From a virus, in IMG/VR virus record IMGVR_UViG_3300045950_000204, positions 1-38,326 of that record: a stretch of 38,326 nt of DNA; one strand, written 5' to 3'. The translations under genes and the position numbers were made by a program. Shown here one piece after another: positions 5,304-22,314 of this stretch. Every line of letters starts with the position of its first letter. Position 1 is the first letter of the stretch. The notes beneath the pieces are model-generated. The model was given only the letters and a program-made list of their open reading frames with translations. It did no database searches and was not told where the DNA came from.

Positions 5304-8300
5304 CTAATTATTCCTGGTCTTTTTCTAATTTTATAAAGTGCTCTATTTGAACCCTCCTCTGCTGCTATTTCAATGAAAGGAGCTATATCGCCTGAGACAT
5401 TAATGACAACCGGTGAACTGTTCAGATTTGCAATTCCTGCTGCTATAGCTGCAAGGGCTTTGTTGCCCGAAGCGGTTATTACTGCCTCGCCCTCATGTAA
5501 AACTGCGTGATAATTGCTATATGGAACATAATCGAGGCCAAATTGATGTTGAGTGTATTCAGGAGCCCCAGGAATGTTAGCAAAGATAGGACTTTTTGAA
5601 AGATTATTGAGTGAGTCCGTAGCAGCTTCGGCTGCGGCGGAAAGATTATATAATGGCGACCAATTTATCGATTGAATCTGTGTTTTTAGAATATCTACAG
5701 CATCCTGTTGTAGCCCGAGAATTATGTCAATTTTATCCCTTGCCACAGTTTCAAAGTTTGTCCAAAAATCTATAACTGCTTTATTAACCACCTCCTGATA
5801 CGGCTTGATATAAATATCATAAAGTGTTTGAACCTTCGTTGCTTCGATTTCTATTCCATACTGTTTAGCTTTGCTCAGTAAATCCCACAAATCTTGTATT
5901 AATTGTGTATATTCGCCGAACTCCTCTGCTTGTAGCCCCCCAGCTAATAATTCATCGAGTCTTTGTATTGTCCTGTTCCATTGCTCGTTGAAAAATCTTG
6001 CACGTTCTTCGGGAGTCATACCCTGAAGTTCAACGTCCAATAACCATTGCTCAAAACTTGAAACAAGGGAATTGAATTGCTGTATGTAATTCAACAATAC
6101 TTGCCAGGAGCTTTCCATATCTTTAAAAGCAGTAGCCATCTTGGTTGCATCCGTTTCATTTATGAATGTATTTAAAGAGGCTTTGAATTTTGCAAGAAAA
6201 TAGTCCCATTGCTCAGCGGGTTTCATCAGATAAACTCTGAAATCTTCTATAATTTTTCTAATAGTGTTTTTTAGAGTCTCATAGAATTGTTTGATATAAT
6301 TAAGATATTCAAATTCGGCTTGATATCTCTGTTGTATTAGACCTGTAATATTCTCTAATTGTTCTCTATATTCAACGCCTGTAAGACCTGCCAGGCCCGT
6401 AACTGCTTCCCTGATTTGTTTATCTAAATTGTCGAGAGCTTCCTGATAAATGTTAGCATATAAATTTATGTCTTCATAGATTTTGCGTACATCATATTCC
6501 GTGCCTTTTCCAAATCCTTTTATAACTGAGATAGTGTTTAAGAGACTTATTACTGTATCAGCAAGTTCTTCGCCAGATTTCTGAAATTCTTTAAAGTCGA
6601 TGCCTATAACTTTGCCTATCTTATTTATCATGTCCTGAATGAATTCCATTGTTGCTTCTTGAAGTGATTCGCCTTCGTGTAAGTGCTGTGACCATTTTTC
6701 TATATTTAAGATTTTATTTATCTGCTCATCTGAAATTTCCAGTGCTTTTATCCCTTTCAGCATCGTATCGTAGATGGTTTGCATGGCCTTTGCCATTGTA
6801 CCTTCTACCTCATCAGACATATCACCTGATATTCTGATAATGCCTTCTTTAATAGATGCGAAGATTTTGGGAATGTCTTCTTCATCTTCAAATAGTCCTC
6901 CTAAAATACCACCTAATATAGCTCCTCCAATCATTCCAGCAGGGCCTAACCAAGACCCAGCGGCCATTCCTGCTGCAATTGAACCACCTCCAGCAATAGC
7001 ATAACCTCCTAACATCCCGCCTATGCCACCCAATGCACCACCATAACTACCATAACCACCGAACATTGAGCCAATACCATATCCCAATAATCCTGCACCT
7101 AATGTTCCCTGTGCATATGGAAACCAACCACCTTGTGCGGCGGTTGGGAATATGGCAGCACTTCCGCCCCACGCAGGTACTTGAGCACCATACATTGCAG
7201 CTTGACCAAGTAGATTTGTAATCCCGCCATAGCCCATCCCGCCATAGCCCATACCTGGTATCATCTGCCCGATTCCGCCCATTGTTTGCTGCATCATTGT
7301 TACAATCGGCACTACAACTGGCCTTGCAAGTGCCATTGTTATCATTTCTGCAAGCAGACGTGCAAACATTCCCTTGATAGTGTTGCAAAAACTTTTAAAT
7401 CCATCGGCAGCCCTGCCAGAAAGTGTATCTTCAATAAAAGTCGCCATGCTATCAAGTGTACGTTTTGTTAAGCCTTCAAGATCAAAGAAAGATTTCTCAA
7501 ATGCCCTGACGGCTTTCTCGGCGCCAGAGATTGAATACTCTTCTATAATTTCAGCTTTACGTTTTTCTATAAGTTCAGTAATCTCAAGTTCACGTTGTTT
7601 ATATTCTTCATATGATTGTGCTGAAAGAAAATTCAGTCTCATGAGTTCTCGGCGGAATTTATCTTCTTCTCTTAGACGCTTATCGAGTTCCGTCGCCGTC
7701 TTATCTGAAAGCTTCTCCTCAAGTTCTTCCAGCGCTTCATAAACAGTAATTTGTTTATCAATATTATTTTCTATAGCTTTTTTACGATCCTCATCAAACT
7801 GAAGCCACTTTTGCTTTATTTCTTCAATGCCCTCTTCCGTAGCCTTCTCCATTGCCTCCATTGCCTCTTTTTGTTTTTGATAGGCAATTTCTTTGATGAG
7901 TAGCTTTCTAAATGCATCTTCGAGTTTTTTAACTGCATCAGGGCCCAGACTTCCAAATTCTTTTGCCCAATCTTGAGTTAGTTGTCCGAGCTCTACCAGC
8001 TTTGCCTCGATTCCCTCAAGCCCTACAAGCTCCGCTTCTCTTTTGAATTGCTGCAATAAAGAACCGTAAGTCTCCCTTAGTTTCTGTATTTTTTCATCCA
8101 CCTTACCTGTTTCGTCTCCAACTTCGGCCGTTGCTTTTTTGAGTTCCTCAAAGATGCTTATCCAGCGTTTCTTTTGTTCTTCAGACCAAAGCTCTGTAGG
8201 TAGAGTAATAATAGCTTCAGGGAATTCGGGTTTTTCTGGGTACATCAATATTCCTTTTTCTACCGCGAAATCATGAATCTTCTTTAAAAAGTTATATATG

Positions 8301-9244
8301 TCTTGTAAATCATCCCGCATTGCTTTTATACCCGGCTCAACAAGCTCACGCAATTTTGCACGAATATCAATTATTATCCCTGGAAGTTTAGACCCCACTT
8401 CGTATATTATGGCGAATATTTCTGCGAGATCGCTCATTGCTTCCTGAAATTTAGGGTCAGAAACGGTTTCTCTCAGTTTCTTATATGCTTCTGTTTTAGC
8501 CTCAACGATTCTCAGATATGCAGGCTGAAAGGCTTTACCGAACGTGACTTTATAATCATAGATGTGTCTTTGTAAAGAACCCATTTGTTTTGCTGCGGAA
8601 AATAATGATTTTTCGTATATACCCGTATAATTCGCAGCGGCTTCCATGACAGTATTCATCCTACTCTGCATCTTTTCTGCTTCAGTCAGTTCGTTCACAT
8701 TTTTACCGAGCTGTTCTGCTGTCTTTTTATATCCTGCCTCAAATGTTACATTAAGACCAATGTTTCTTAACATTTCCACCTGTGCTGATTGAATTGCATG
8801 TATAAGGCGTTCGAATGCTTCAGAACTATTTATCGAACCGACTACGGCGAGGTCTTGAGCGGCTCGGGCAAGCTTTGATGACTGTGCAAGATCCATGTTA
8901 GATGCCGCCATTCTGGTCAGTATCTGTCTGGATTCTATCGCGGCAATTCCTGTCTTGCGTAAGGTAGCTTCAAAAACCCTCATCTGCTCGGCAGTGTATC
9001 CAGCATTTTGGCCTGCCTGTTGCATTGTGATGCCCAGCATTTCATACTTTCCTGCCATGCGTGTAACATCTACAATGTGGTCTTTAACCTTCATAGCAAG
9101 GAAGCCTACACTAATAGTGCCGAGTACGGGTATTAGAGATGTGAAAGTATTTTTCAGACTGCTAAGGGAACGATTAAGTGAACTAAATGTTCCCTCAGTT
9201 TTATCTACTGCTTCGAATATTAATCTAATTTTCTCGTCTGGCAT
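5300..9244 (-). CDS. Tail tape measure protein
   Basis: At 1314 aa this is the largest gene of the window and sits where the tape measure lies in siphoviruses. Residues 1-300 look like a tape-measure N-terminus (NRSLSSLKNTFTSLIPVLGT, then MAASNMDLAQSSKLARAAQDL). Residues about 350-630 are a long charged coiled coil (EELEEKLSDKTATELDKRLR). Residues about 635-795 form a glycine-rich hydrophobic stretch, probably membrane-inserting at DNA injection. The last 500 residues are again helical. It would set tail length and be ejected with DNA. The ATG has no evident ribosome-binding site, so translation is probably coupled to the frameshifted chaperone gene that overlaps its first 20 bases. Confidence 0.9.
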   Translation of the reverse strand: MPDEKIRLIFEAVDKTEGTFSSLNRSLSSLKNTFTSLIPVLGTISVGFLAMKVKDHIVDVTRMAGKYEMLGITMQQAGQNAGYTAEQMRVFEATLRKTGIAAIESRQILTRMAASNMDLAQSSKLARAAQDLAVVGSINSSEAFERLIHAIQSAQVEMLRNIGLNVTFEAGYKKTAEQLGKNVNELTEAEKMQSRMNTVMEAAANYTGIYEKSLFSAAKQMGSLQRHIYDYKVTFGKAFQPAYLRIVEAKTEAYKKLRETVSDPKFQEAMSDLAEIFAIIYEVGSKLPGIIIDIRAKLRELVEPGIKAMRDDLQDIYNFLKKIHDFAVEKGILMYPEKPEFPEAIITLPTELWSEEQKKRWISIFEELKKATAEVGDETGKVDEKIQKLRETYGSLLQQFKREAELVGLEGIEAKLVELGQLTQDWAKEFGSLGPDAVKKLEDAFRKLLIKEIAYQKQKEAMEAMEKATEEGIEEIKQKWLQFDEDRKKAIENNIDKQITVYEALEELEEKLSDKTATELDKRLREEDKFRRELMRLNFLSAQSYEEYKQRELEITELIEKRKAEIIEEYSISGAEKAVRAFEKSFFDLEGLTKRTLDSMATFIEDTLSGRAADGFKSFCNTIKGMFARLLAEMITMALARPVVVPIVTMMQQTMGGIGQMIPGMGYGGMGYGGITNLLGQAAMYGAQVPAWGGSAAIFPTAAQGGWFPYAQGTLGAGLLGYGIGSMFGGYGSYGGALGGIGGMLGGYAIAGGGSIAAGMAAGSWLGPAGMIGGAILGGILGGLFEDEEDIPKIFASIKEGIIRISGDMSDEVEGTMAKAMQTIYDTMLKGIKALEISDEQINKILNIEKWSQHLHEGESLQEATMEFIQDMINKIGKVIGIDFKEFQKSGEELADTVISLLNTISVIKGFGKGTEYDVRKIYEDINLYANIYQEALDNLDKQIREAVTGLAGLTGVEYREQLENITGLIQQRYQAEFEYLNYIKQFYETLKNTIRKIIEDFRVYLMKPAEQWDYFLAKFKASLNTFINETDATKMATAFKDMESSWQVLLNYIQQFNSLVSSFEQWLLDVELQGMTPEERARFFNEQWNRTIQRLDELLAGGLQAEEFGEYTQLIQDLWDLLSKAKQYGIEIEATKVQTLYDIYIKPYQEVVNKAVIDFWTNFETVARDKIDIILGLQQDAVDILKTQIQSINWSPLYNLSAAAEAATDSLNNLSKSPIFANIPGAPEYTQHQFGLDYVPYSNYHAVLHEGEAVITASGNKALAAIAAGIANLNSSPVVINVSGDIAPFIEIAAEEGSNRALYKIRKRPGIIR

Positions 9245-9484
9245 TTTTATTTATCAATTTGATACTTTGTAAATACTCCTCGTCTGTTTCAGAGGGTGAC
9301 TTTTTTTCTTTTAGACCCAGAAATGCTAAGATACCTTCTCTGAAGAGAAGTTCTCTTTGTCTGTATTTGATATAAGGTTTGGCATCGTCGGGTCCGTATC
9401 CCCAGGTGATATCGTCTCTTTTTGTGATGTCTCCGTCTGCAAGGATGCAGATAAGTTCATCGAGCCAATCTGCTTCTTTTGAAG
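9225..9484 (-). CDS. Chaperone extension by -1 frameshift (GT-like)
   Basis: Reading the minus strand in the -1 frame from about 9484 gives a continuous, protein-like sequence of about 85 residues that ends at the TAG at 9225-9227. It includes ADWLDELICILADGDIT, WGYGPDDAKPY and RQRELLFREGILAFLG. There is no start codon or ribosome site for it, so it must be reached from the upstream frame. The likely slip point is CTT CAA AAG AAG (minus strand; 9473-9484), where an A-AAG slip is possible. The fused product would be about 200 aa, like lambda gpGT, and ends inside the tape-measure start. The exact slip codon is inferred. Confidence 0.75.
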
Positions 9485-9829
9485 TGCTTCTACTGCTTTT
9501 ATCAGTTTCTCGAAGATTGAGGCAATCTGGTTGCAGGCGAAAAAATCCTCAATCACCTTTATGCCGAGTTCAATATCTATATCAAACTCAATTTCTGATG
9601 CAAGCTCATCTATGTTTTTGTCTTTAAGTTTCGTCCCCTCTGGTGTGAGAATTATTGCAAAAAATTTCGAGAGCATACCTCCGCCGATAAGTTTATTTAT
9701 TAGTTGAATAATAGTGGTTTCAGATGTTACAGTAATGCCTGACAGTTCGCTTTCAAGCTGGCGGATCTGGCCGAAGACGAGTTTTTTCTGAATGTATTTT
9801 TTACCGCCGATTTCGTATGTAAACTGCAT
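9326..9829 (-). CDS. Tail assembly chaperone, short (G-like) product
   Basis: A 167-aa protein directly between tail tube and tape measure, the standard place of the G/GT chaperone. The N-terminus MQFTYEIGGKKYIQKKLVFGQIRQL resembles tail-chaperone starts. The zero-frame C-terminus after about residue 117 becomes low-complexity (SASLQTETSQKETISPGDTD), as expected when the conserved reading continues in another frame. The start has an AGGAGG site 4 bp upstream. It probably binds the tape measure during tail assembly. Confidence 0.75.
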   Translation of the reverse strand: MQFTYEIGGKKYIQKKLVFGQIRQLESELSGITVTSETTIIQLINKLIGGGMLSKFFAIILTPEGTKLKDKNIDELASEIEFDIDIELGIKVIEDFFACNQIASIFEKLIKAVEALQKKQIGSMNLSASLQTETSQKETISPGDTDPTMPNLISNTDKENFSSEKVS

Positions 9830-9870
9830 TTAAACCTCCTTAAAAAGAATTTAAATTTCAATATTCAAGA

Positions 9871-10803
9871 TTATGAAAATGTAAACTTCAGCTCGTCGTT
9901 GCCTGCTGCGGTCGGATGTAGAGAAAACGGGCAATTGAGAATGAGCCAGTTTTCCCTATCTCCATAGCTCGGCACATCAAGCACTGCCTTTGGTGCATCG
10001 ATCACGCATTTATTTCCTGTGGCAGAGCCAATTGTAGCTGTGATTGCAGCCTGTGTCGAAGCTGACCAGTAACCCCAGAGGTCTTTTGTTGCGACTGTTA
10101 CCATCTCGGGGTCAATGCTTCCTCTTGGCTCACGGTTTGTGATGAGCCACTCCTTAATCCCTGTTGCGCTGTTAGCGTCCACCCGCTTTGCTATTGCGTT
10201 ACCAATATCGAAATTGAACGAGTTTATCACAGCTGCATAAGCATCGAATGCGAATGATGCAGAAAGAAACCTTGGCGGGATTGTGGTTGCAAACGTGCCA
10301 GCAGGGATTGATTGGTCTGCGGGGCCTGCGTAGATGCCCGTGAACTCCCACGTGATTTTTGTATACTCTGTAGCCACGCAGACGCCTGAAAACGTGCCTC
10401 TGGCTCCGAGTATCTTATGTAGTATATCGTGCTGATATGCATATATTGCGATTGAAGTATTACCGCTTATATTGCTGTTCGGTAAATAAATAACACTTAC
10501 GCCTATGTTGATCGTCTCGGTGAAATTACAGCCCTTGAAAAGTACACCGATCTCAGGTGGTACATCCACTGCGCCTCCTTTGCCCTTAATCTCTGTTGTA
10601 AATCGCACTCGTACCGCCTCGCCAATATTCACAGGAGCAATCTTACCCATAAAACCAGGATATGCCCCGCGTTCCAGTCGCCTACCGACCGCTGAAACCT
10701 CAACGCCCTCTGCAAGTATTGCGTTTGCCGCAGGCGTAGGCGTGGGATCTGTGCCGTAGGTTGCCTCGACTTTTGCTAAAATTAATGTTCTATCTCTCTG
10801 CAT
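9871..10803 (-). CDS. Major tail tube protein
   Basis: A 310-aa protein between the tail terminator pair and the chaperone. The N-terminus (MQRDRTLILAKVEATYGTDP, PTPAANAILAEGVEV) and a middle segment (FTTEIKGKGGA) are typical of siphovirus tail tube subunits of D3112/B3-like phages. The protein is beta-rich with few charged stretches. Its start overlaps the preceding small gene by 14 bases. It would polymerise into the non-contractile tube. No tail sheath gene exists in the window, consistent with a siphovirus rather than a Mu-type contractile tail. Confidence 0.8.
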   Translation of the reverse strand: MQRDRTLILAKVEATYGTDPTPTPAANAILAEGVEVSAVGRRLERGAYPGFMGKIAPVNIGEAVRVRFTTEIKGKGGAVDVPPEIGVLFKGCNFTETINIGVSVIYLPNSNISGNTSIAIYAYQHDILHKILGARGTFSGVCVATEYTKITWEFTGIYAGPADQSIPAGTFATTIPPRFLSASFAFDAYAAVINSFNFDIGNAIAKRVDANSATGIKEWLITNREPRGSIDPEMVTVATKDLWGYWSASTQAAITATIGSATGNKCVIDAPKAVLDVPSYGDRENWLILNCPFSLHPTAAGNDELKFTFS

Positions 10804-10984
10804 CTTTTACCTCCTTTTTATTCTGGATTTCTGCCTTCGTAGGAATGACAGAATCATTTATTGGCTGAAGATATTCTTTAAGACGATTTGCGATATCATC
10901 AGGTAGATCGATTTCTTCGCCGGGCGTATACAGTTTGCCCTTATGATTGATATTTGTACCGTGTAAAACTTTGTATTTTGCCAT
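10790..10984 (-). CDS. Small tail-module protein, DUF2635/Mu gp38-like
   Basis: A 64-aa protein. Residues 1-44 (KVLHGTNINHKGKLYTPGEEIDLPDDIANRL) match the short proteins seen between tail terminator and tube in Mu-like phages. The last 20 residues are encoded by a short palindromic repeat (10821-10853; peptide VIPTKAEIQN), so the C-terminus has apparently been replaced or extended by that element. The ATG follows a GGAGGG site. Its role is unknown; it is probably small and structural. Confidence 0.65.
   Translation of the reverse strand: MAKYKVLHGTNINHKGKLYTPGEEIDLPDDIANRLKEYLQPINDSVIPTKAEIQNKKEVKDAER
10821..10853. repeat. Short palindromic repeat inside the DUF2635-like gene
   Basis: The core TTCTGGATTTCTGCC with AGGAATGACAGAA reads on the minus strand as VIPTKAEIQN, the peptide signature of a repeat family widely seen in bacterial chromosomes (IPAKAGIQ type). 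It is read in frame at the 3' end of the gene. Confidence 0.65.
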
Positions 10985-11014
10985 GTTGCCCTCCTTTTTA
11001 TTAATTCTCCTTTT

Positions 11015-11073
11015 GTCATTCCGAGGCGAAGCCGAGGAATCTTTTTAAGATTTCTCCCTCCGGTCGAAATGAC
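11015..11073. repeat. Intergenic palindromic repeat
   Basis: A GTCATT...AATGAC-bounded element with internal hairpin ATTCCGAGGCGAAGCCGAGGAAT. It lies between two leftward tail genes and fills the gap almost completely (gap 10985-11077). It is the same general class as the in-frame repeats elsewhere in this phage. Confidence 0.7.
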
Positions 11074-11077
11074 ATCT

Positions 11078-11491
11078 TTATTCACTCACCACCGGCAGAT
11101 ACTGCCGGGTTTGAAATTGTAATGTATATATAATTACGCCATCTGCATAATCGGTTATTTCACGCGCTGTACAGGTAAAAGGCTCGATATCACTTATGCC
11201 GAGCGTTTTCTTATTGATTGCATCCCTGATTGCATCTAAAAGTGCATACGTATCTTTTGCAGCTTCTTTTTCTGATTTCAGATTTTTATTTGAAACCTGC
11301 ACCTCGTACGTGAGCGTAAAGACTGGTCTCGGCTTCGTGCCTGTATCTTCGTCTTTTGCGAAATATACAAATGCAGACGGATAGTTTAATGAGACAGGAA
11401 TTGCCCTTCTTCCGAGACTGTCAACTATCCTGAAGAGTCCGAGAGATTCAATCGTCTCAATAAGCTTATCTTCTATTTCCGAGATGTTCAT
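11078..11491 (-). CDS. Tail terminator/completion protein, DUF1834 (Mu gp37)-like
   Basis: A 137-aa protein at the head of the tail module. The sequence MNISEIEDKLIETIESLG...RRAIPVSLNYPSAFVYFAKD...TYEVQVSNKN...DAIRDAINKKTLG resembles the gp37/tail-terminator type: an N-terminal helix, a beta sheet, a further helix and terminal strands (YADGVIIYTLQFQTRQ). It would cap the tube and join it to the head. It lies 4 bp after a Sec-signal protein. Assignment rests on pattern and position. Confidence 0.65.
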   Translation of the reverse strand: MNISEIEDKLIETIESLGLFRIVDSLGRRAIPVSLNYPSAFVYFAKDEDTGTKPRPVFTLTYEVQVSNKNLKSEKEAAKDTYALLDAIRDAINKKTLGISDIEPFTCTAREITDYADGVIIYTLQFQTRQYLPVVSE

Positions 11492-11495
11492 TTCT

Positions 11496-11867
11496 TCATT
11501 TCACCGCCAGGTCAAGCCAATCCTCAAATTTCTGTCCATTTGAGGTAGCTGTTTTTATTTTTATGTAATAAAATTTTCCTTCATCTCCATTGAGTAATTT
11601 ATATTTACATTTCGTCTGATATGGGCTAACATCTGATAACATTGTGCTTGATTTATCTGTATTTGTGATTTTTTCATAAATCTTTATATCGCATGATGAT
11701 ATTGTTTCATTGCTGCCGAGCCAGCCTGAGAAATCGTGATAACGAAAAAATTCTTCATAAACTGTTTTTGTAATTGTCTCTGCATAAAGTGAAGAGCATG
11801 TAAGACTGAGATTCTGAAACGAGTTCAGAATGACAGATAAAAACAATATTAATAGGGGTTTTTTCAT
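11496..11867 (-). CDS. Virion-type beta-sandwich protein with Sec signal peptide
   Basis: A 123-aa protein. Residues 1-30 form a hydrophobic leader ending in a SLYAE-like cleavage site. Part of that leader (VILNSFQNL) is encoded by a palindromic repeat (11808-11834). Residues 31-123 (DFSGWLGSNETISSCDIKIYEK, then LLNGDEGKFYYIKIKTATSNGQKFEDWLDLAVK) follow a pattern I associate with small beta-sandwich proteins found among phage fibre/head-tail genes. A Sec signal on such a protein is unusual. It overlaps the beta-helix gene by 4 bp. Whether it is in the virion or exported is unknown. Confidence 0.6.
   Translation of the reverse strand: MKKPLLILFLSVILNSFQNLSLTCSSLYAETITKTVYEEFFRYHDFSGWLGSNETISSCDIKIYEKITNTDKSSTMLSDVSPYQTKCKYKLLNGDEGKFYYIKIKTATSNGQKFEDWLDLAVK
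11808..11834. repeat. Palindromic repeat inside a signal-peptide coding region
   Basis: GATTCTGAAACGAGTTCAGAATGAC is read on the minus strand as VILNSFQNL, a common repeat-encoded peptide. It is placed in the hydrophobic leader of the 123-aa protein. Confidence 0.65.
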
Positions 11868-13783
11868 TTGGGCTTGCCTTTCACTGTAGAATCAAAGCTT
11901 CTCTGTTTCACTGTAGAATCAAAGCTTCTCTGTTTCACTGTAGAGCCGCGTAGTATTTCGATTATTTTTGTAATAATCGCAAGATCGCTCAGTGTTATCT
12001 GGTCAGTCGCAATCAGGATTTTCGATATTAATACTGATTCCATAACCGATATCGTATCTGTAATAATTCTGATCTTATCAGTAAGCACTGTATCTGAAAG
12101 ACCTATCGAATCCAAAATTTCTTTAATTATTTGTGCGGTTTCGATTATCACAATGTCGGAAAGACTAATAGAATCAAGGATTGCCAAAGCTCTATCTCTT
12201 TTCACTTCATCCATCGCATTAATTGCATCAAGGATTGTAAAAATTTTATCTCTCAAAATGCTGTCTGTAAGAGAAATTGAGTCAAGTATTTCGAGTGCCT
12301 GATCTCTGTATACGGCATCGGTTAACCCAATTGTTTCAAGTATCTGCAGCGTTTTATTTATGAGCATTACATCTGCAAGCGAAATCGTATCTTCTATAAT
12401 ATTGAGTTTATCAAGTATAACTGAATCAGAAAGGTTGATAGAGTCTTCTATTAGAGTTAATTTCTGATAGAGTTGAATCAAGTCCGATAGACTGATAGAA
12501 TCGATGATATTGAGTGTTTTGTCTGTCAGAATGCTGTCTGATAATGTTGTTGTATCTGCTATTTGTAGGGTCTTGTCTCTTAGGATTACGTCCTCAAGGC
12601 TTATCGTTTCTATTACCTGCGGGCTCCAATCTCTCAGAGAAATATCAGATGCACTTATACTGTCTGTGATATAAAGCGTTTTGCATATTAAAATTGAATC
12701 CGTAAGCCCTATCGAATCTAAAACTTCTTTTATAATCTGTATATATTCATCTGCACCAATATCCCATGTCCCTTCACCTGGTCTTGTCTCGCCATCTATA
12801 TCAGTTGTGAAGGCGAGATTAGCATCACCTGAAAGGTCTGCGCCATAGTTTCTCGCCCCAGCATCATTTGAAGCAAGGTGAAAATCTTTGTTAGCTGCAT
12901 CAACAAAAGTAACAGTTACACCATTACGTGGATTAGAGCCTGGTGCATCTGTCTGGGTAGGACCTGAGAGGTTATTTGTAGATGCAGCGTCAAAAGTGCC
13001 GGAATAATTATCAGTGTTATTATAGGAAATATTGTTTTTGCTAATAGCTGTTCCGAGCTCGCGTTGAATCCCTAAGTAATTATTATATACTGTATTATTA
13101 TACACATAAGCTGTATGGTCAGCTTCACTTATGCTGATTCCTCTCCCAGTACTGCCAAGAACGTTGTAAATAATATTGTTCCAGATGTATGCTTTACTCC
13201 CTGCATTACCAAGAGAAAAAACATATATCCCATAATGAGAATAAGTAGAGTCTGTTAAACCTTGTATAATAAGATTCTCCACATACATTTCATTTACAGC
13301 ACCACCGGAATATAAAATAATGCCAGAGCTACCATGATTTGCTAGTGATGTCATTTTAAGTTGTAGTCCATCAATCCTGACGTGTGGATCTTGCACCCTA
13401 ATCTGTGTGCCATTGGTGATTAATTTATATTTTGTATCATCCCATTTCCCATTATGACGTGCTTCAGGAGTAGTATAGATTTTTATATACCGTGTAGAAT
13501 CTGTTATAAAGCCGTCAATTATAACTGGAGTAGTGTCAGTGACACCAGTCCAATCACCTTGTATCTTTGCAACAGCTATTTCATCTAAGGCAACAAGGTC
13601 TCTTTGTTCCCCCGCTTCCCAAGCAGACAGGGATGTGTAATTACATCCCTGGCCTGACGGGCAAATGGTTTTTACAACCTCGGTGGCAGCATATGATGAG
13701 CTAAGAGCAAAAAGTAAAGTGCTGAGAGTTAAGAGCCAGGAGCTCAAAGCGATAAATTTCAATGAATCTCTATTAAGTCTCAT
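11864..13783 (-). CDS. Exported beta-helix protein with 14 tandem ~18-aa repeats
   Basis: A 639-aa protein. Residues 1-33 are a Sec signal (LLFALSSSYA|A). Residues about 35-345 look like a right-handed parallel beta-helix: short recurrent strands such as VRIDGLQLKM, YVENLIIQGL, AYIWNNIIYN and AYVYNNTVYNN, then the segment DIDGETRPGEGTWDIGADEY common at the end of such domains. Residues about 350-610 hold about 14 imperfect 18-19-aa repeats of the form I(L)DSISLSDS(I)LRDKxL. The last 27 residues contain an exact duplication from a 27-bp tandem DNA repeat. It could be a depolymerase-like tail spike, an exported surface protein or an adhesin. It lies inside the late operon between two other signal-peptide genes. 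Confidence 0.65.
   Translation of the reverse strand: MRLNRDSLKFIALSSWLLTLSTLLFALSSSYAATEVVKTICPSGQGCNYTSLSAWEAGEQRDLVALDEIAVAKIQGDWTGVTDTTPVIIDGFITDSTRYIKIYTTPEARHNGKWDDTKYKLITNGTQIRVQDPHVRIDGLQLKMTSLANHGSSGIILYSGGAVNEMYVENLIIQGLTDSTYSHYGIYVFSLGNAGSKAYIWNNIIYNVLGSTGRGISISEADHTAYVYNNTVYNNYLGIQRELGTAISKNNISYNNTDNYSGTFDAASTNNLSGPTQTDAPGSNPRNGVTVTFVDAANKDFHLASNDAGARNYGADLSGDANLAFTTDIDGETRPGEGTWDIGADEYIQIIKEVLDSIGLTDSILICKTLYITDSISASDISLRDWSPQVIETISLEDVILRDKTLQIADTTTLSDSILTDKTLNIIDSISLSDLIQLYQKLTLIEDSINLSDSVILDKLNIIEDTISLADVMLINKTLQILETIGLTDAVYRDQALEILDSISLTDSILRDKIFTILDAINAMDEVKRDRALAILDSISLSDIVIIETAQIIKEILDSIGLSDTVLTDKIRIITDTISVMESVLISKILIATDQITLSDLAIITKIIEILRGSTVKQRSFDSTVKQRSFDSTVKGKPK
11882..11935. 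repeat. 27-bp tandem repeat, two copies
   Basis: Two exact consecutive 27-bp units (11882-11908 and 11909-11935), followed by the first part of a third, encode the repeated peptide STVKQRSFD at the C-terminus of the beta-helix protein. Confidence 0.9.
13699..13750. repeat. Low-complexity CTAAGAGC repeat, copy 2
   Basis: GAGCTAAGAGCAAAAAG, GCTGAGAGTTAAGAGCC and GAGCTCAAAGC form a degenerate octamer repeat. On the minus strand it encodes ALSSWLLTLSTLLFALSSS, the hydrophobic core of the signal peptide of the 639-aa protein. Confidence 0.65.
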
Positions 13784-13817
13784 TTGTGTCTCAATGAGTC
13801 TCTATAAGTCTCATATC

Positions 13818-14405
13818 TTATTGAAACGTTATCTTCAGACTAAGTGTCCATGTTTCGCCGCTTACCTTAATGCCCTTCGATTCAACTTTACGATTGAGAT
13901 TCTTTCCAGTATCAAGGCTCGTGTTTGAGACTGTATATTCATTCCATGCAAAGTTTGCGTCAGTACTACCATAGGTTGAACGCCATTCCACCGTCTGGTT
14001 GACTTTCTGCGGATAAGTCGCATCCATAGCTTTGTAAAGTTTATTTGTACCAAGAAGCCCTGTGTCTGTCGCTTGTGCGGCGGTAGTTGAATCACCAACG
14101 CCGAGATATGCGTTAGTTGCATCCCATTTTATTGGCGTTCCTATCCCGCAGATAATGTCGATTAATTCTTGTAAGCCTTCATTCAAACCGAGGTTGTATT
14201 CAAATATTTCGATTGAATAAGGGTTAAATAAATGAAGTGGAGCTCCTGCCCAAAGTGCCTCTGCTATTTCGCCAGTAGTGTCATGGAATTTAGCAATCTG
14301 CCATTGTGCTTTTAACTTGATTCCATCATCTACCGCATAGCTGATATTTGAGACAAAAAATATCAGCATGAATACAGCTAAAATTGTTGCTATACGTTTT
14401 TTCAT
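13818..14405 (-). CDS. Signal-peptide version of a phage structural protein
   Basis: A 195-aa protein. Residues 1-24 form a typical Sec signal (KKRIATILAVFMLIFFVSNISYA). The remainder contains a pattern I associate with phage virion proteins: NLGLNEGLQELIDIICG, WDATNAYLGVGDSTTAA, TDTGLLG, YKAMDATYPQ, VEWRSTYGSTDANFAWNEYTVSN and a beta-strand tail ending SLKITF. Such proteins normally have no signal peptide. The gene lies 34 bp upstream of the beta-helix gene. It may be a surface-exposed or exported version, or a virion part assembled from the periplasmic side. Function unknown. Confidence 0.65.
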   Translation of the reverse strand: MKKRIATILAVFMLIFFVSNISYAVDDGIKLKAQWQIAKFHDTTGEIAEALWAGAPLHLFNPYSIEIFEYNLGLNEGLQELIDIICGIGTPIKWDATNAYLGVGDSTTAAQATDTGLLGTNKLYKAMDATYPQKVNQTVEWRSTYGSTDANFAWNEYTVSNTSLDTGKNLNRKVESKGIKVSGETWTLSLKITFQ

Positions 14406-14409
14406 AGTT

Positions 14410-14649
14410 TTATCCTCCTTCAGTTTTTAAATGTTTTAAGTTTCTACATACGGTTTCTCTTTCTAAACCTATCAATTCAGCTAACTCGTGCTGTTTTAAA
14501 TGCCTTAGCTCTGGATAATAATCCAGAATAAATGCTATTCTTTCTTTTGCTTTTGATAGCCTCATTGCCCAGATAAAGTTCATCGCCTTTTTGTATGTAT
14601 CTATTTCAAAGCATACTCTTTTTTGATTCTTTCTACTGTTTCCTGCCAT
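14410..14649 (-). CDS. Orphan CRP/FNR-type helix-turn-helix protein
   Basis: A 79-aa protein. Residues about 49-78 (LKQHELAELIGLERETVCRNLKHLKTEGG) match the C-terminal DNA-binding helix-turn-helix of the CRP/FNR family. Residues 14-45 resemble the linker helices ahead of it (KERIAFILDYYP). The cyclic-nucleotide/sensor domain is absent. It starts inside the end of the 56-aa ORF upstream and sits among lysis and secreted-protein genes. It may regulate the late operon or a host gene; its target is unknown. Confidence 0.65.
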   Translation of the reverse strand: MAGNSRKNQKRVCFEIDTYKKAMNFIWAMRLSKAKERIAFILDYYPELRHLKQHELAELIGLERETVCRNLKHLKTEGG

Positions 14650-14771
14650 ATTTCAAGCCTCAATTCTTCATCTGTTATTTCTTCCCCTTTTGAATGTTTT
14701 GCAAGAATGCCTAACGCTTCAATTATTGTTATTATCAACAAATCTATAGTTTGAGGTGAAAGACGACCCAT
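14601..14771 (-). CDS. 56-aa small protein, possibly membrane-associated
   Basis: An ATG at 14769-14771 preceded by GAGGAGG opens a 56-aa frame that overlaps the stop of the lipoprotein gene by one base and the start of the next gene by 49 bases. Residues 8-22 (TIDLLIITIIEALGIL) are hydrophobic. The rest is charged (HSKGEEITDEELRLEIWQ, ETVERIKKEYALK). The strong ribosome site and the coupled start support a real gene. Its position in the lysis region suggests an accessory lysis or membrane protein, but no family is recognised. Confidence 0.6.
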   Translation of the reverse strand: MGRLSPQTIDLLIITIIEALGILAKHSKGEEITDEELRLEIWQETVERIKKEYALK

Positions 14772-15115
14772 TATTGACCTCCTCGATAAAATTCTCTACG
14801 TGCTTGTAGTAATAAGTTTTTCAGAGTTTGAAGATGCATATTTATATTCTCTTTTTCAAGATACATGTCTCTGGCAAGGTCATAAACAGATTGAAATTTA
14901 TAATCAATTGCCCTGAATTTTTCTAATTGAACATCAGTTATTCTGCCTTCCAGATTTTCAATGATGACATATTCTCTAATCGCTAACCACTCGGATTTTA
15001 TAGCATACAAACTTGACCTCATAGGGTCTTTAGTTTGAATCATTGCACAGCTTGAGAGAATAATTATTGTTAGTAAAATAAGTGGAATCAATATGAATCT
15101 ACTGCGTTTAATCAT
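14771..15115 (-). CDS. Small lipoprotein, possible outer-membrane spanin part
   Basis: A 114-aa protein. The N-terminus MIKRSRFILIPLILLTIIILSSCA is a lipoprotein signal with lipobox LSSC (Cys23). The mature part is helical and charged (MYLEKENINMHLQTLKNLLLQARREFYRG). It lies just after the holin-like gene and lysozyme, where Mu-like phages keep spanins. Helical rather than Pro-rich content differs from classic Rz1, so the spanin role is only plausible. It would need a diderm host. Confidence 0.6.
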   Translation of the reverse strand: MIKRSRFILIPLILLTIIILSSCAMIQTKDPMRSSLYAIKSEWLAIREYVIIENLEGRITDVQLEKFRAIDYKFQSVYDLARDMYLEKENINMHLQTLKNLLLQARREFYRGGQ

Positions 15116-15134
15116 AACTTATGCCCCTTTCCTT

Positions 15135-15716
15135 TCACTGTGGCGGCGCAGGCGCAAGCCTGTCTATCCTTACACATACTATCTCGCTTGGTATTGATTC
15201 ATTGCCCGATTCATCCAGAGCAGTTGCATAAAAGCTAATTATTTTTTCCTGCCCCTTACCAATCGGAACAGTTATAACTGTCGACCTCTCTGCCCCGCCT
15301 GTATGTGATGATGCATCAACTTCTTTTTCTACTTGCATAGTGCCTGAGCAGTCGTGATAGATTCTGATCTTCGCAAGGTCTGTCAATGGCGAACCATCTT
15401 CATTTGTAGTCGGCTCTGTCCATGTAAGTGTGACTTCAACGCCTGTGGCGGTTGCTGTAATTGCTGAGGCTCTTAGCGGTGCTATAAAGCTAAGGGCTAA
15501 GAGCAAAGAGCTAAGAGCAAAAATGATGATTAATTTTGAAGCGCCATGCTTTACAATGCTTCTGCCTAAGATGTACGAGATAATTGTTGCCGTAATTGTG
15601 ATAATCGCCTCGGTAGGTAATTCAAGACCAAGATGTTCGTTTAAAACTGGAAGTATAGCAGCAAGCAGCGATAACCAGAATTCAGTTGTTTTCAGGCCTG
15701 ATTTTATTTTGTCCAT
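15135..15716 (-). CDS. Holin-like membrane protein with C-terminal FN3-like domain
   Basis: A 193-aa protein. Residues 1-55 (IKSGLKTTEFWLSLLAAILP, then EAIITITATIISYILGRS) look like a small two-helix phage holin. Residues 61-85 form a third hydrophobic stretch resembling a signal peptide (IIIFALSSLLLALSFIAPLRASA), encoded by a low-complexity CTAAGAGC repeat. Residues 86-193 are fibronectin-III-like (VEVTLTWTEPTTNEDGSPL, then SFYATALDESGNESIPS). This could be a fusion of a holin with an exported FN3 protein. It lies directly downstream of lysozyme, 33 bp away. Confidence 0.6.
   Translation of the reverse strand: MDKIKSGLKTTEFWLSLLAAILPVLNEHLGLELPTEAIITITATIISYILGRSIVKHGASKLIIIFALSSLLLALSFIAPLRASAITATATGVEVTLTWTEPTTNEDGSPLTDLAKIRIYHDCSGTMQVEKEVDASSHTGGAERSTVITVPIGKGQEKIISFYATALDESGNESIPSEIVCVRIDRLAPAPPQ
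15486..15522. repeat. Low-complexity CTAAGAGC repeat, copy 1
   Basis: Repeated GCTAAGGGCTAAGAGCAAAG-type units are read on the minus strand as FALSSLLLALS, the hydrophobic core of the third membrane segment of the holin-like protein. A related stretch encodes the signal peptide of the beta-helix protein. Confidence 0.7.
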
Positions 15717-15749: not shown

Positions 15750-16196
15750 TTATAACTCATCTCTGTATTTGCCTGTCTTCATCTGGGCTGCAAGCTCAAT
15801 CGCGCGATTGCCAACCTGCTTTGCCCATTTGCTATTAAGCATCTCTTTAGCAGCTTTATCAAAGTCGCCTTCTTCAACTGCTTTTAAAAACCTTTTAAAC
15901 ATTGCTAATCTCGTCATCCCCAAATTGAAACACATGTTTATGAGAATATCCTTTCTTGCATTATCTAATGTAAGCCAAAAAGGTAAATAAAATTCAAGGT
16001 CAGCAGTACATTCTCTAATATCATTCATTAAAAGATATTCAGCCTCTTCTTTCGTAATTCCTCTATCCTCAATATTTCTTCCATATCCGATTGTCAGCCT
16101 GTCTGAAAGGCACTTGTATGCCTTGCTTTTGAAACCCTCATGCCTTTTTAATTGTTCAACCAATTTTCCCATCTGTGATGTGATATTAATTTCCAT
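15750..16196 (-). CDS. Endolysin, T4-type lysozyme (GH24)
   Basis: A 148-aa protein of about normal length for GH24 lysozymes. The active-site region is LKRHEGFKSKAYKC, then TIGYGRNI: Glu20 is the catalytic acid and Thr35 aligns with T4 Thr26. At the place of T4 Asp20 stands Cys29 (E+9), as in P1 Lyz. The C-terminal part (NMCFNLGMTRLAMFKRFLKAV...WAKQVGNRAIELAAQMKTG) is typical. There is no signal peptide or SAR helix, so release to the wall would need the holin-like protein encoded next. It would cut the glycan strands of peptidoglycan at lysis. Confidence 0.9.
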   Translation of the reverse strand: MEINITSQMGKLVEQLKRHEGFKSKAYKCLSDRLTIGYGRNIEDRGITKEEAEYLLMNDIRECTADLEFYLPFWLTLDNARKDILINMCFNLGMTRLAMFKRFLKAVEEGDFDKAAKEMLNSKWAKQVGNRAIELAAQMKTGKYRDEL

Positions 16197-16372: not shown

Positions 16373-16374
16373 TT

Positions 16375-16397
16375 AAACTGGCTCTGCAAGCCAGTTT
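16375..16397 (-). terminator. Terminator of the capsid operon
   Basis: A perfect 9-bp stem, AAACTGGCT (16375-16383) with AGCCAGTTT (16389-16397), has a 5-base loop and overlaps the stop codon of the DUF1320 gene. On the minus strand it is followed by U-rich sequence (GGGTTTTAAAAACTTTTTT). It probably separates head transcripts from the lysis/tail part or attenuates read-through. Confidence 0.7.
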
Positions 16398-16827
16398 ACA
16401 TTTTTTCCAAAACGTTCTTTGAAAACACCCTGTCGTTAAGTGTTTTATTAGTTTTATACTCGCCTGGCTCTGGAGTTGTGCCTTCGGCAGTGCCGAGGCT
16501 GACCGTGCCGCGTTGAATCATCTCCAGTATCTTGAGCGCGTTCTTATATCTATTCATCATCCCTTCAGGCATCTCAAGTTCAAATCTGCGTGAGTAAAGC
16601 CAAAAGATTGAAAAATCGATAGATAGCTTCTTAACCAGCCCGGGTACAGGATCGAGGGGAAGGGTGTATCTTCCCCTCAAGTATCCGCCTATAAGTTGAT
16701 CGGCATAATCAATCGCATCGTTGACACGAGTTTCGTTGATAATGCCGAGATTCTCATCGTCTGTAAGCTGGATGAGGTTCTGCTCGGGTATATGCGACTT
16801 GATGTCTTCGAGCGTGCAATAGGGCAT
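16396..16827 (-). CDS. Head-completion protein, DUF1320 (Mu gp36)-like
   Basis: A 143-aa protein. The start MPYCTLEDIKSHIPEQNLIQLTDDE, followed by RVNDAIDYADQLIGGYLRGRYTLPLDPVPGLVKKLSIDFSIFWLYSRR, is a close match to the DUF1320 family, which follows the capsid gene in Mu-like phages and forms part of the neck. The C-terminal 40 residues are less conserved. It lies 8 bp after the major capsid gene, and its stop lies inside the terminator hairpin. Confidence 0.85.
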   Translation of the reverse strand: MPYCTLEDIKSHIPEQNLIQLTDDENLGIINETRVNDAIDYADQLIGGYLRGRYTLPLDPVPGLVKKLSIDFSIFWLYSRRFELEMPEGMMNRYKNALKILEMIQRGTVSLGTAEGTTPEPGEYKTNKTLNDRVFSKNVLEKM

Positions 16828-16835
16828 TTAATCAC

Positions 16836-17813
16836 CTATGTCAGCAGCGTATCATACCAGAGAAAACCGAGATCCGCACCGGTGATGAGGATATCAGTCT
16901 CTTCTGCAACCTCATAGACATCTTGATGTCTTGAGGCTTCTCTCCAGGTTGTTACCCTTCTTGGTGCGCCGTTTTCATATGCAACGCGCGCCTGATACCC
17001 TGCGCTGGGTGTTTTGAGACCTGGACTTTTTGGACGATAGAAGAGAAATGCAGAGCCTTTGCCTGCGTTCTTTTCCCAGACGTTAATGGCAGTGAACTCA
17101 GTGCCCTCTTTTGTCTCTTTTGCTGTGCTGTAGATTGCCTCGCCAATGAGCACTTCATCAAACTCAAGTAGAGCTGCAAGCAATTCTTTTGTGAGAACTC
17201 CGCGCTCAGTATACTTAATCTTGTCGAGTACTGTGCTTTCTTCTTTGAGAGAATTGTATGTGCCGAAATCCATTATTAATATATTCGGCTTTAACCCAGT
17301 GTTGCTTCTGATTGTCTCTACACGTGTTCTTACATCTGCAAGAAAAGTGTTGCCAGTTCCTGCTTTCCATAAGCCTTCTGCATCTTCGCCTGCAACTCCT
17401 GACCATGTGCCTGTTATAATGAGATTTGCGACTCGTCTTTCTTTCTTCAGATCGACCTTGTCGGTTGCAAACTCTATTGCGTCCTGGTCAGGTTTTAGGG
17501 GTGGCGCGCCTTGCGCACCGGCAAATTTTCTGTCTTCGTCAGTAACCTCTTTTGCAAACGCATATTCCTTTGTTGCTATGCTTAGATAATCAACAGGATA
17601 TCCGCCTCTGGCTGCCTCTGCCCCGGGGCCCCTGATAGCGGCTTCATCTCGAAACCATGCACCTTTGAGGTAGCGGGCTATCTTTGCTTTTGGAGAAATC
17701 TTATCGATGATAGGGAAAACCCTGTCAGCGATATAGCTCAGATTGCGGTATGCTATGCTGACGTCTGCCAGCGGTCCCGCAACTATTAACTCTTTTACAT
17801 CTGGCTGTGGCAT
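16836..17813 (-). CDS. Major capsid protein (HK97 fold)
   Basis: A 325-aa protein between the decoration and DUF1320 genes. Motifs seen in major capsid proteins of Mu-like siphoviruses are present: DVSIAYRNLSYIADRVFPI near the N-terminus, KEYAFAKEVTDEDRKFA, KKERRVANLI, RSNTGLKPNILIMDFGTYNSL and the C-terminal region VAEETDILITGADLGFLW. It builds the icosahedral shell. It needs no large N-terminal delta domain because a separate scaffold is made from the protease gene. The ATG has a GGAGGG site. Confidence 0.9.
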   Translation of the reverse strand: MPQPDVKELIVAGPLADVSIAYRNLSYIADRVFPIIDKISPKAKIARYLKGAWFRDEAAIRGPGAEAARGGYPVDYLSIATKEYAFAKEVTDEDRKFAGAQGAPPLKPDQDAIEFATDKVDLKKERRVANLIITGTWSGVAGEDAEGLWKAGTGNTFLADVRTRVETIRSNTGLKPNILIMDFGTYNSLKEESTVLDKIKYTERGVLTKELLAALLEFDEVLIGEAIYSTAKETKEGTEFTAINVWEKNAGKGSAFLFYRPKSPGLKTPSAGYQARVAYENGAPRRVTTWREASRHQDVYEVAEETDILITGADLGFLWYDTLLT

Positions 17814-17829
17814 TTATTTATCCCTCCTT

Positions 17830-18345
17830 TTAGCTTGTTGCTAATAATCCATGAGTTTCTAATGCAACAAATATTGCGTTAATTGCAGTCCTCGCCTCTG
17901 CATCCACAGTGGTTCCACCTGTTGGGTCTGCAATATGTGATTGCTGCACTGTAGGAAACGTTAGTTGTGCAAGCAGAACAACTCCGAGCTCATCCTCTGC
18001 CCCGCCTGCAAGCAATACACCAACAGGGTACTGCTTGGCTGCGATAGCCTTCGCCTTGCCCGCATCTGTAGCGCTGACATATTCTATGCCGATAATTGCG
18101 CCGGTTGAGAGTGTTGCACCGAGCTGAATCTTTGAAATTCCACCGCAGCCGATGGGCCTGATCACTGCTGCCTTGCCCTTTGCATCGGGTGCGTTCTGTA
18201 AGATTCCAAGCGGGATATCAGTAGTTGCATCCGGTCTGCGGACCTTCCCTGTTGTCGCATCTAAAACAACGATGCGGTACTGATCATTTGAAAGATCCTC
18301 GTCCGCTTCAAGACTTATGTCTATAACTTTGTTTTCCCAAGCCAT
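17830..18345 (-). CDS. Capsid decoration / head fibre protein
   Basis: A 171-aa protein. Residues 1-125 resemble DUF2190/decoration proteins (LEADEDLSNDQYRIVVLDA, GVLLAGGAEDELGVVLLAQL), binding the capsid surface. Residues 128-171 (QQSHIADPTGGTTVDAEARTAINAIFVALETHGL) match the trimerising motif found in phage head-fibre proteins. It is probably displayed on the capsid. The gene lies between scaffold and capsid genes with a GGAGGG ribosome site. Confidence 0.75.
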   Translation of the reverse strand: MAWENKVIDISLEADEDLSNDQYRIVVLDATTGKVRRPDATTDIPLGILQNAPDAKGKAAVIRPIGCGGISKIQLGATLSTGAIIGIEYVSATDAGKAKAIAAKQYPVGVLLAGGAEDELGVVLLAQLTFPTVQQSHIADPTGGTTVDAEARTAINAIFVALETHGLLATS

Positions 18346-18358
18346 CTTCTCCCTCCTT

Positions 18359-18901
18359 TTATTCTCTGATCTCAGCAGCGTATTCGGCTGCGAGCTCTGG
18401 ATTTTCTTTTTGAACCTCGGTAAATGCCATGTTGTATGTGAGGTCTTTGTTTGCTTTCATCTTCTCATTGATTTCTGCTGTGAGACGTTCTACCGCTGTT
18501 CCGCCTTTATCCCCTGCCTTCTTCTTTGTTGCCACTTCCGAGAAATCAACCGATTTTGGAAGGGTTTTTAAGAAGTCTTTAAACGCCTTTACAGGGGCCT
18601 TCTTCACCTTCTTTTCCGTGCCCTTGTCATCGACCTCTACGAACTCATATGTCTCGACCCCGGAGAAGATCTCCATGAAGTCGAGAATCGCGGATTTCAT
18701 TGCAGGCGTAATCTTTTCCTTCATCTCGTCGCTGTCGCAGAATGCTGCAAACTCTGTTCTCTGATTCTTTGCTTTTTCATCGGCAAGCTCTTTTTTGAGC
18801 TTTGCGATCTCCGCATCCTTCGCCTTGTCCTTCTCGGAAAAGTCAGCGATCTCCTTTTCTCTTTCTTTGAGCTTTGCTTCAAGCTCTTGGATTTTTTCCA
18901 T
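18359..18901 (-). CDS. Internal scaffold protein (Mu gpZ-like)
   Basis: An in-frame ATG at 18899-18901 inside the protease gene follows a very strong AGGAGGGAG site (just upstream, about 18905-18912). The product would be 180 aa, beginning with the coiled coil MEKIQELEAKLKEREKEI. This mirrors Mu I/Z and lambda C/Nu3, where a separate scaffold is made from the protease C-terminus. Production of the short form is inferred from the ribosome site, which is better than that of the full-length gene. Confidence 0.75.
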   Translation of the reverse strand: MEKIQELEAKLKEREKEIADFSEKDKAKDAEIAKLKKELADEKAKNQRTEFAAFCDSDEMKEKITPAMKSAILDFMEIFSGVETYEFVEVDDKGTEKKVKKAPVKAFKDFLKTLPKSVDFSEVATKKKAGDKGGTAVERLTAEINEKMKANKDLTYNMAFTEVQKENPELAAEYAAEIRE

Positions 18902-19648
18902 ATCTCCCTCCTTGTTTAAAAAATTATTAATGCCTTCATGCGTAGAAGGTAATGAATTTTCTTTGTTAAGTATGTCTTTAACTTTTTGAGCAATACGCTC
19001 GATAAATGATGTTCTTTGTTCATCATCTTTTATTTTTAAGTCTTCAAGCTCATAATTTATTGCTATTTGTTCATTGTTGAAAGCTACATCGGGGAGTCCC
19101 TTGACTGCAGGAGGCATTGCACCTAAAAAGCCGATATGCCGCAACGTCATGTCAGGATAAAGTGAAATCGAGCGTTTTTTGAAAAGACCTTGTTTGAGCA
19201 TTTCAACAAAGTTAGGGATAAGGTCTTTAAGTTTTGCATATAAGACACTCCCCTTACGCTCAAGTGCTTCTATCCAGCCCCATGCCGGGGCGTTGTCTTT
19301 CGGATGACCAATCACAACGGGCGCCTCGTGTTCTGCGGGATTGTATTTCGAAACAATTGCGTCAAGGTCTTCCTCTGTCCATGTCTTTGTATTTCCATTT
19401 GAATCAGTATGAGTGCCTGTGCGGAAGACAGGTATTAATTCTGAATGTTCACTTTTCTTCATCACCCATTCTCCTTTTTCGTTTTTCTCATATTTTTCCT
19501 TTACCGCTGCCCATGCCACAGCATTACATTTCTCTTCATCGCCTTCATCTTGTTCGAATGCAGAATTATAGGCAGCAATCCATATTTCTTTTACATGCTT
19601 GGGGAGAGATTTGATTCTCTCAGGCGCATTGTCAATCGTATATGGCAT
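18359..19648 (-). CDS. Prohead protease/scaffold (Mu gpI-like) with N-terminal ChaB domain
   Basis: About 429 aa from the ATG at 19648. Residues 1-62 (DNAPERIKSLPKHVKEIWIAAYNSAFEQ, then AVAWAAVKEKYEK) are a ChaB-type domain, sometimes seen on Mu-like protease genes. Residues about 70-230 resemble the Mu gpI protease (IPVFRTGTHTDSNGNTKTWTEEDLD, VVIGHPKDNAPAWGWIEAL, FKKRSISLYP, HIGFLGAMPPAVKGL), with His in GHPK and Ser in RSISLYP as candidate catalytic residues. Residues 250-429 form a coiled coil and helical scaffold. An upstream in-frame ATG at 19693 exists. I prefer 19648 because the ChaB domain starts there, though no clear ribosome site precedes it. Confidence 0.85.
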   Translation of the reverse strand: MPYTIDNAPERIKSLPKHVKEIWIAAYNSAFEQDEGDEEKCNAVAWAAVKEKYEKNEKGEWVMKKSEHSELIPVFRTGTHTDSNGNTKTWTEEDLDAIVSKYNPAEHEAPVVIGHPKDNAPAWGWIEALERKGSVLYAKLKDLIPNFVEMLKQGLFKKRSISLYPDMTLRHIGFLGAMPPAVKGLPDVAFNNEQIAINYELEDLKIKDDEQRTSFIERIAQKVKDILNKENSLPSTHEGINNFLNKEGDMEKIQELEAKLKEREKEIADFSEKDKAKDAEIAKLKKELADEKAKNQRTEFAAFCDSDEMKEKITPAMKSAILDFMEIFSGVETYEFVEVDDKGTEKKVKKAPVKAFKDFLKTLPKSVDFSEVATKKKAGDKGGTAVERLTAEINEKMKANKDLTYNMAFTEVQKENPELAAEYAAEIRE

Positions 19649-19814
19649 CTTGATATTCAGATTACAGAATATAAAAAAATATTTCTCCTGCATTATTCAG
19701 TAATACTTTTACTGCATCATTCAGTAGTATTTAAAACGCTCCTGTGATAGCTTATTTTTATTGAGATGAGCTATCAAATTAAAAAAATATTAAGGGGAAG
19801 GTTGGTAGTTTGTA
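19649..19814. promoter_or_regulatory. Divergent late-operon control region
   Basis: This 166-bp gap lies between the leftward protease and rightward packaging operons. It contains an imperfect 24-bp tandem repeat at 19688-19711 and 19712-19735 (CTGCAT-N-ATTCAGTA-R-TA core) and an 8-bp inverted repeat TGATAGCT/AGCTATCA (19745-19752, 19769-19776). No strong sigma70 -35/-10 pair is evident, as expected of activator-dependent late promoters. The Mor-family protein at 25.8 kb is the obvious candidate activator. The ribosome site AAGGGGAAGG precedes the rightward gene. Confidence 0.6.
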
Positions 19815-22091: not shown

Positions 22092-22314
22092 GAAAATGCA
22101 TTACTGCCCGTTAACAAGGGAACTCTGTAAACATGTGCTGGTTAAGGATAGAACCCCATATGCATGTGTATATGACGGAATTCTGCGGATTTTTAAAGAT
22201 ATAAAGAAATGTCCTGAGAATACCGTAAGCCGTGACCGTAATCCGTCATCCGACACGGACAACGGACACGGACGCGAAAGGAGTAATTATGGCGAAAGGT
22301 CTGTGGATAGATAA
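22084..22314 (+). CDS. Small Cys-rich protein between terminase and portal
   Basis: A 76-aa protein overlapping the terminase stop by 8 bases and the portal start by 26. Residues 5-42 contain YCPLTRELCKHVLVKDRTPYACVY...KKCPE, four cysteines that could bind a metal. The C-terminal 30 residues are polar and encoded by a CGGACACGGACAACGG-like low-complexity stretch, so may not be conserved. Similar Cys-rich small proteins occur at 26048 and 35720 of this phage. Function unknown. Confidence 0.55.
   Translation: MNKKMHYCPLTRELCKHVLVKDRTPYACVYDGILRIFKDIKKCPENTVSRDRNPSSDTDNGHGRERSNYGERSVDR

Follow-up and report, generated by a model that had tools for sequence, protein, structure and literature searches.

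Introduction

The virions of tailed phages are understood as being built wholly in the cytoplasm, and phage proteins with Sec or lipoprotein signals, such as the spanins, Lom, Bor, Cor and Llp, are dedicated envelope proteins encoded near lysis or fibre genes. Here, we describe a 38,326-nucleotide (nt) virus record, IMGVR_UViG_3300045950_000204 (positions 1 to 38,326, the whole stretch analysed, hereafter the window), which represents an uncultured Mu-like transposable siphophage. Five genes in a densely packed stretch of its minus strand (positions 11496-15716), within the slot bounded by the head-tail adaptor gene and the tail terminator gene, encode proteins with leaders resembling export signals. 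These genes likewise lie near lysis and fibre genes, but unlike the dedicated envelope proteins, three of their products appear to consist of fibre-type bodies onto which leaders were grafted.

Mu-like siphophages of Pseudomonas aeruginosa also have variable genes close to the major head gene, as here, in the form of PaMx73 gene h and similar head-module morons, for which, in contrast to the window proteins, the consulted part of the source describes no export leader (PMC4378225). The same part of that paper reports a virion protein as the product of an accessory gene adjacent to the major head gene, and genes in this neighbourhood can therefore be structural (PMC4378225). In the reading that we favour, and to which we give about an even chance, the slot is an accessory one that holds a lysis cassette and a tail-fibre cassette, the latter re-addressed by Sec leaders to the envelope, where it would play a role at the host surface. 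The sequence comparisons point to fibre-type bodies, precise leader grafts, leader DNA derived from repeats and non-homologous Sec proteins that recur in the slot of relatives.

Results

Leaders in the gene cluster

The initial annotation had placed signal peptides or membrane leaders on five neighbouring late proteins of 123, 639, 195, 114 and 193 amino acids (aa), and all five open reading frames (ORFs) were recovered (Table 1). Signals were called by a rule combining a positive n-region, a hydrophobic h-region and an AXA-type site or lipobox. Four of the five proteins were Sec- or lipoprotein-positive, and the fifth, the 123-aa protein, has an N-terminal hydrophobic leader with an AXA-like site, SLYA|ET, slightly beyond the range of the rule. 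The leaders are N-terminal in four cases; that of the 193-aa protein turned out to be internal (residues 57-85). The signal prediction held against controls of about 1%, with false-positive rates of 1.2% for whole-protein shuffles and 0.9% for internal Met starts; 3/57 shadow ORFs were positive, as were 0.5-6% of sequences in which the first 60 residues of the cluster proteins were shuffled. The rest of the window contained one further rule-positive, a 60-aa ORF, and the clustering of leaders is far above chance. A distant blastn search with the whole cluster gave no match.

Mis-called starts were ruled out as the source of the leaders: no ATG, GTG or TTG separates leader from body in the 195-, 639- and 123-aa genes, so that these bodies cannot be produced leader-free via an ordinary internal start.

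Bodies and leader boundaries of the three fibre-type proteins

Virion-like bodies are present as annotated, in three proteins (195, 639 and 123 aa) rather than two. Residues 25-194 of the 195-aa protein match phrog_23653 (E=2.1e-43), and G104, W154 and R172 are invariant in an alignment of 38 family members. In a VIA-align comparison of the AlphaFold model of its body (pLDDT >90) with PDB entries, the top nine rows were phage tail, baseplate or connector proteins (Z 10.2-4.5; first non-phage row 4.2), including the tail of a Haloferax virus (Z 10.2), the phi812 and A511 baseplates (Z 7-8) and a GP4 fibre/fibre-tail-adaptor entry (Z 7.2), and BFVD gave tail fibre matches as well. The fold and the conserved residues are shared with tail proteins of phrog_23653/phrog_5417, such as a minor tail protein of Rhodococcus phages and the product of a distal-tail gene of Nitrospirota prophages. 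These relatives are leaderless and, where their context was read, encoded beside fibre or distal-tail genes, in Nitrospirota prophages in the distal tail region, whereas the window gene has a Sec leader, preceded by a strong ribosome-binding site, and lies in the lysis slot. Homologues occur in dozens of phages, and those read were leaderless with one clear exception, in contig L028, whose own, unrelated leader represents an independent graft. No match to the 195-aa protein was found in the genomes or records of nine relatives, or in Desulfobacterota genomes by a search run without a positive control.

For the 639-aa protein, four leaderless homologues, whose N-terminal domains are 33-48% identical to it, start with MATEVVK, MATVITK or MATELKH, and mature residue 1 of the window protein aligns with residue 2 in 4/4 of them; the predicted cut, SYA|ATEVVK, would yield the same N-terminus as Met removal does in the closest two. 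The N-terminal domain is predicted to be a pectate-lyase/PL6-type beta-helix (model pLDDT 78; best Foldseek matches mostly beta-helix enzymes, E 1.8e-3 at best). The predicted beta-helix would be shared with polysaccharide lyases and tailspikes of the pectate-lyase type (PL6, VexL, P22-type tailspikes), but here, unlike in those proteins, the domain is followed by long ISLSDSV-type repeats.

The 123-aa body is a candidate fibre-tail adaptor, with a weak match to PF23148 (25.5 bits, under the cutoff of 27), the profile of the phage GP4 fibre-tail adaptor (PDB 8jou), which the 195-aa body matches in fold; the matched model region of the GP4 protein is leaderless. A leaderless homologue in a related phage, L075, starts with MITKTVYEEFF (63% identity over the body), where the window protein has SLYA|ETITKTVY. 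PDB sequence profiles of the three bodies gave chance antibody matches only, and tblastn searches of cultured phages with the 639-, 123- and 193-aa proteins gave no match.

Sec signal features are thus present in all three fibre-type proteins (by the rule in the 195- and 639-aa proteins, by the hydrophobic leader and its AXA-like site in the 123-aa protein), and the leader ends align with leaderless homologues: the predicted signal-peptidase cuts (YA|AT, YA|VD and YA|ET in the three leaders) would place the N-termini 0-4 residues from those of the leaderless counterparts encoded by other phages. Tail fibres usually attach via their N-terminus, and such approximately native N-termini would also suit a second explanation, that the exported fibres are virion parts which, once cleaved, wait in the periplasm and join tails as the cell is opened by holin and lysozyme, so that the virion would be completed outside the cytoplasm. 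The apparent joint export of adaptor-type and fibre-type proteins from beside lysis genes fits as well. We nevertheless regard post-lysis assembly as rather unlikely: a J-type central fibre is already encoded by the phage, the cassette members of L075 do not all bear leaders, and the literature searched contained no precedent, tail-fibre proteins with Sec leaders being reported nowhere within its partial coverage.

Origin of the leaders

Dispersed repeat DNA was found in three leaders (123-, 639- and 193-aa proteins). The 25-nt core of the REP-like repeat GTCATTCTGAACTCGTTTCAGAATCTC in the 123-aa leader occurs exactly in two unrelated viral contigs, and the word TTTTTGCTCTTAGCTC common to the 639- and 193-aa leaders gave 3 matches at ≤2 mismatches, against 0.05 expected by chance. 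The microrepeat common to these two leaders was present in no other locus among those compared, an exact search of viral contigs with the GCTCTTAGC leader repeat returned none, and related intergenic arrays were detected in 4/296 Nitrospirota genomes. A 953-aa protein of L155, the Nitrospiraceae SURF_45 phage, has a leader likewise made of a repeat, TTCTCACTTC. REP-like palindromes are also dispersed across the phage genome itself (11022-11081, 25117, 30461-30487 and 31657-31683), one of them directly past the tail terminator gene.

As three leaders contain dispersed repeat DNA and the homologues are leaderless, the leaders seem to have been recruited recently from repeat DNA. The initial annotation had named recent sequence artefacts as an objection, and its first half, that these are recent additions, agrees with the data. 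The further step would be that they are accidental, repeat DNA inserted at gene starts having produced hydrophobic N-termini without export function and leaving the proteins mis-targeted, non-functional or still assembled in the cytoplasm. The repeats in three leaders, the leaderless state of most homologues and a comparable leader on a terminase (see below) would all be consistent with accident; three leaders that are independent, in frame and cleavable 0-4 residues from the body start by prediction speak against it, as do the strong ribosome-binding site at the 195-aa leader, the slot enrichment in relatives and the even-cysteine excess of leader-bearing phage proteins presented next, and we judge it fairly improbable.

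The same slot in related phages

Prophages in Nitrospiraceae and Desulfobulbus assemblies are among the closest relatives by major head protein (80-86%), and none of the cultured phages is close. Together with its relatives, the window gave a set of 50 non-identical phages, in which the slot was taken to begin immediately ahead of the major head gene and to end 3.5 kb past it. Sec- or lipoprotein-positive genes made up 23/184 (12.5%) in the slot versus 16/425 (3.8%) elsewhere (Fisher p=2e-4, a rough value, as is the one for cysteines, the samples being related sequences), and 14 of the 50 phages had at least one in the slot. Among cysteine-containing phage proteins, 26/45 Sec-positive ones had an even cysteine number compared with 350/921 negatives (p=0.011), which fits exported proteins because disulphide formation is expected there. 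The non-lysis Sec proteins in the slot of relatives are not homologous to those of the window and are often virion-like, namely two proteins of L073, one fibre-like (387 aa) and one with a beta-helix, another beta-helix protein in L110 and a BppU-like protein, barely over the Pfam cutoff, in L154. Related prophages had been suggested as the place to look for the same cluster; in the related phages compared, the slot instead holds these unrelated fibre-, beta-helix- and baseplate-type proteins, among others.

Two further groups of leaders were noticed in other phages. Sec-leader proteins of ~120-150 aa, several of them FN3- or Ig-like, often lie beside fibre cassettes of environmental phages (L014, L087, L146, L162 and L163). 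A terminase large-subunit-like protein (L155:3350-4984, also in L074) has a strong ribosome-binding site and the Sec-like leader MASLRRFLFTCLLSAGLCLFIGPVDALA, and its homologues start at the body; either this leader does not export, or damage has occurred in that phage, or translation begins at an unusual start.

Lysis cassette and genome context

Residues 9-55 of the 193-aa protein match the holin family phrog_9987 (E=7e-4), and the leader follows this two-helix holin in frame. The holin homologue of L075 stops at the fusion point, whereas the window protein runs on into the signal-like segment and the two-Cys domain. Since leader-plus-FN3-like proteins exist as separate genes in other phages, for example in L087, the gene probably is a fusion of a holin with such a protein; a sequencing error that deleted a stop codon is a possible alternative. 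The 114-aa lipoprotein shows two spanin features, a lipobox and a lysis-cassette position near holin and lysozyme; no i-spanin-like ORF was seen within the cluster, where divergent partners could escape notice. No homologue of it was found among viral contigs, and L075 encodes a lipoprotein at the corresponding position. Next after the lipoprotein gene comes the 56-aa ORF in the window, an ORF of 57 aa in L075 and one of 72 aa in L165. A gene for a Crp-type helix-turn-helix (HTH) protein also sits within the late lysis/fibre cluster.

Both the lipoprotein and the holin belong to an ordinary lysis cassette, and a single export system of five proteins was therefore ruled out. The idea that structural-type proteins are exported stands in part: there are leaders on structural-type bodies, with a precise boundary, and other Sec proteins in the slot of relatives, but the five do not form one set.

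The transposase indicates that the phage is temperate, which would be compatible with lysogenic conversion, in which surface or secreted adhesins expressed from the prophage alter the lysogen (biofilm, superinfection immunity), and beta-helix, FN3-like and lipoprotein surface proteins would suit such a function. This we consider very unlikely, as the genes continue the row of late genes, with only a few bases between the end of the last one and the tail terminator gene, and the number of promoter-like sites is at chance level (23 vs 19.9 expected).

The ends of the transposable phage are probably marked by a perfect inverted repeat of 26 nt (61-86 and 38143-38168), outside which lie short flanks. 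The early region contains two 132-nt direct repeats with 86% identity (27053-27184 and 29936-30067). Directly past the head-tail adaptor stop codon lies a 10-pair hairpin (16374-16398), terminator-like on the plus strand and with a T-rich stretch following on the minus strand as well, which may divide the head genes from the lysis/fibre slot.

Table 1 Positions of genes and leader repeats in the window.
Feature	Position	Strand	Basis
Tail terminator (11078-11491), tube, tape measure, lambda J-type fibre (1400-4108)	1400-11491		
Gp77-like fibre-tail adaptor candidate, 123 aa; leader residues 1-29 (11781-11867), body from ETITKTVYEEFF	11496..11867	-	
REP-like repeat GTCATTCTGAACTCGTTTCAGAATCTC in 123-aa leader	11808..11834	-	single copy in window, zero in shuffles
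Beta-helix fibre-type protein, 639 aa, ISLSDSV-type repeats; leader residues 1-32 (13688-13783)	11864..13783	-	phrog_12240 on repeats
16-nt word TTTTTGCTCTTAGCTC in 639-aa leader, identical to word in 193-aa leader	13698..13713	-	
Tail-fibre/baseplate-adaptor-fold protein, 195 aa; leader residues 1-24 (14334-14405)	13818..14405	-	phrog_23653
Crp-type HTH protein, 79 aa, leaderless	14410..14649	-	PF13545 29.1 bits, cutoff 27
Small lysis-cassette protein, 56 aa, leaderless by rule	14601..14771	-	ORF
Lipoprotein, 114 aa, lipobox LSSC, Cys23	14771..15115	-	lipobox call
Probable fusion, 193 aa: holin (1-56), internal signal-like segment (57-85; 15462-15548), two-Cys beta-sandwich/FN3-like domain (86-193)	15135..15716	-	
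Tandem GCTCTTAGC microrepeat copies encoding internal leader of 193-aa protein	15494..15523	-	
Phage lysozyme (endolysin), 148 aa, leaderless	15750..16196	-	PF00959 E=1e-15
Protease, major head protein, head-tail adaptor (16396-16827)	16396-19693		
Portal and MuF-type genes	~22232-24972		
Transposase and conserved partner	31465-34285		

Discussion

In the reading that we favour, a lysis cassette of lysozyme, holin and lipoprotein would be followed by an accessory cassette of an adaptor-fold protein, a beta-helix fibre and a fibre-tail-adaptor-like protein, and the separate acquisition of three Sec leaders would have redirected this fibre cassette to the envelope. The three proteins would be made late, exported via Sec and cut back to approximately the N-termini of their ancestors, and would fold in the periplasm or outside, while the lambda J-type protein would remain the tail's own fibre. 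Their most likely role would be at the host envelope, where they might bind or digest polysaccharide, or mask receptors against re-adsorption and superinfection, until lysis frees them. We prefer such action at the host surface because the phage keeps its J-type fibre and because the presence of leaders varies among the cassette members of relatives.

Several points weigh against this reading. Signals were called by an in-house rule and not by SignalP, and the leader on the L155/L074 terminase, a protein that has to function in the cytoplasm, shows that even a convincing leader call does not prove export. Lysis proteins are part of the slot count, and so is the window. No close relative was found that shares the cluster or covers the slot; in L075, the 123-aa homologue is leaderless though other Sec proteins occupy its slot.

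Only tentatively, and with more doubt than confidence, would we extend the reading to a lineage of tailed phages that exports a complete tail-fibre module (adaptor, fibre and fibre-tail adaptor) via Sec, with parts that act on the host surface, by masking or attacking it, or enter the virion only after lysis, and with export-tagging that is recurrent and convergent in Mu-like siphophages of Nitrospirota and Desulfobacterota.

The leaders described here suggest that phage genes can gain signal peptides from dispersed repeats. If these leaders work, fibre-type proteins leave the cytoplasm, where tails are normally built. Fibre-type proteins with grafted, repeat-derived Sec leaders would then be natural experiments in the re-targeting of virion proteins, and would point to an extracellular completion of tails or to fibres serving as tools that act on the envelope.

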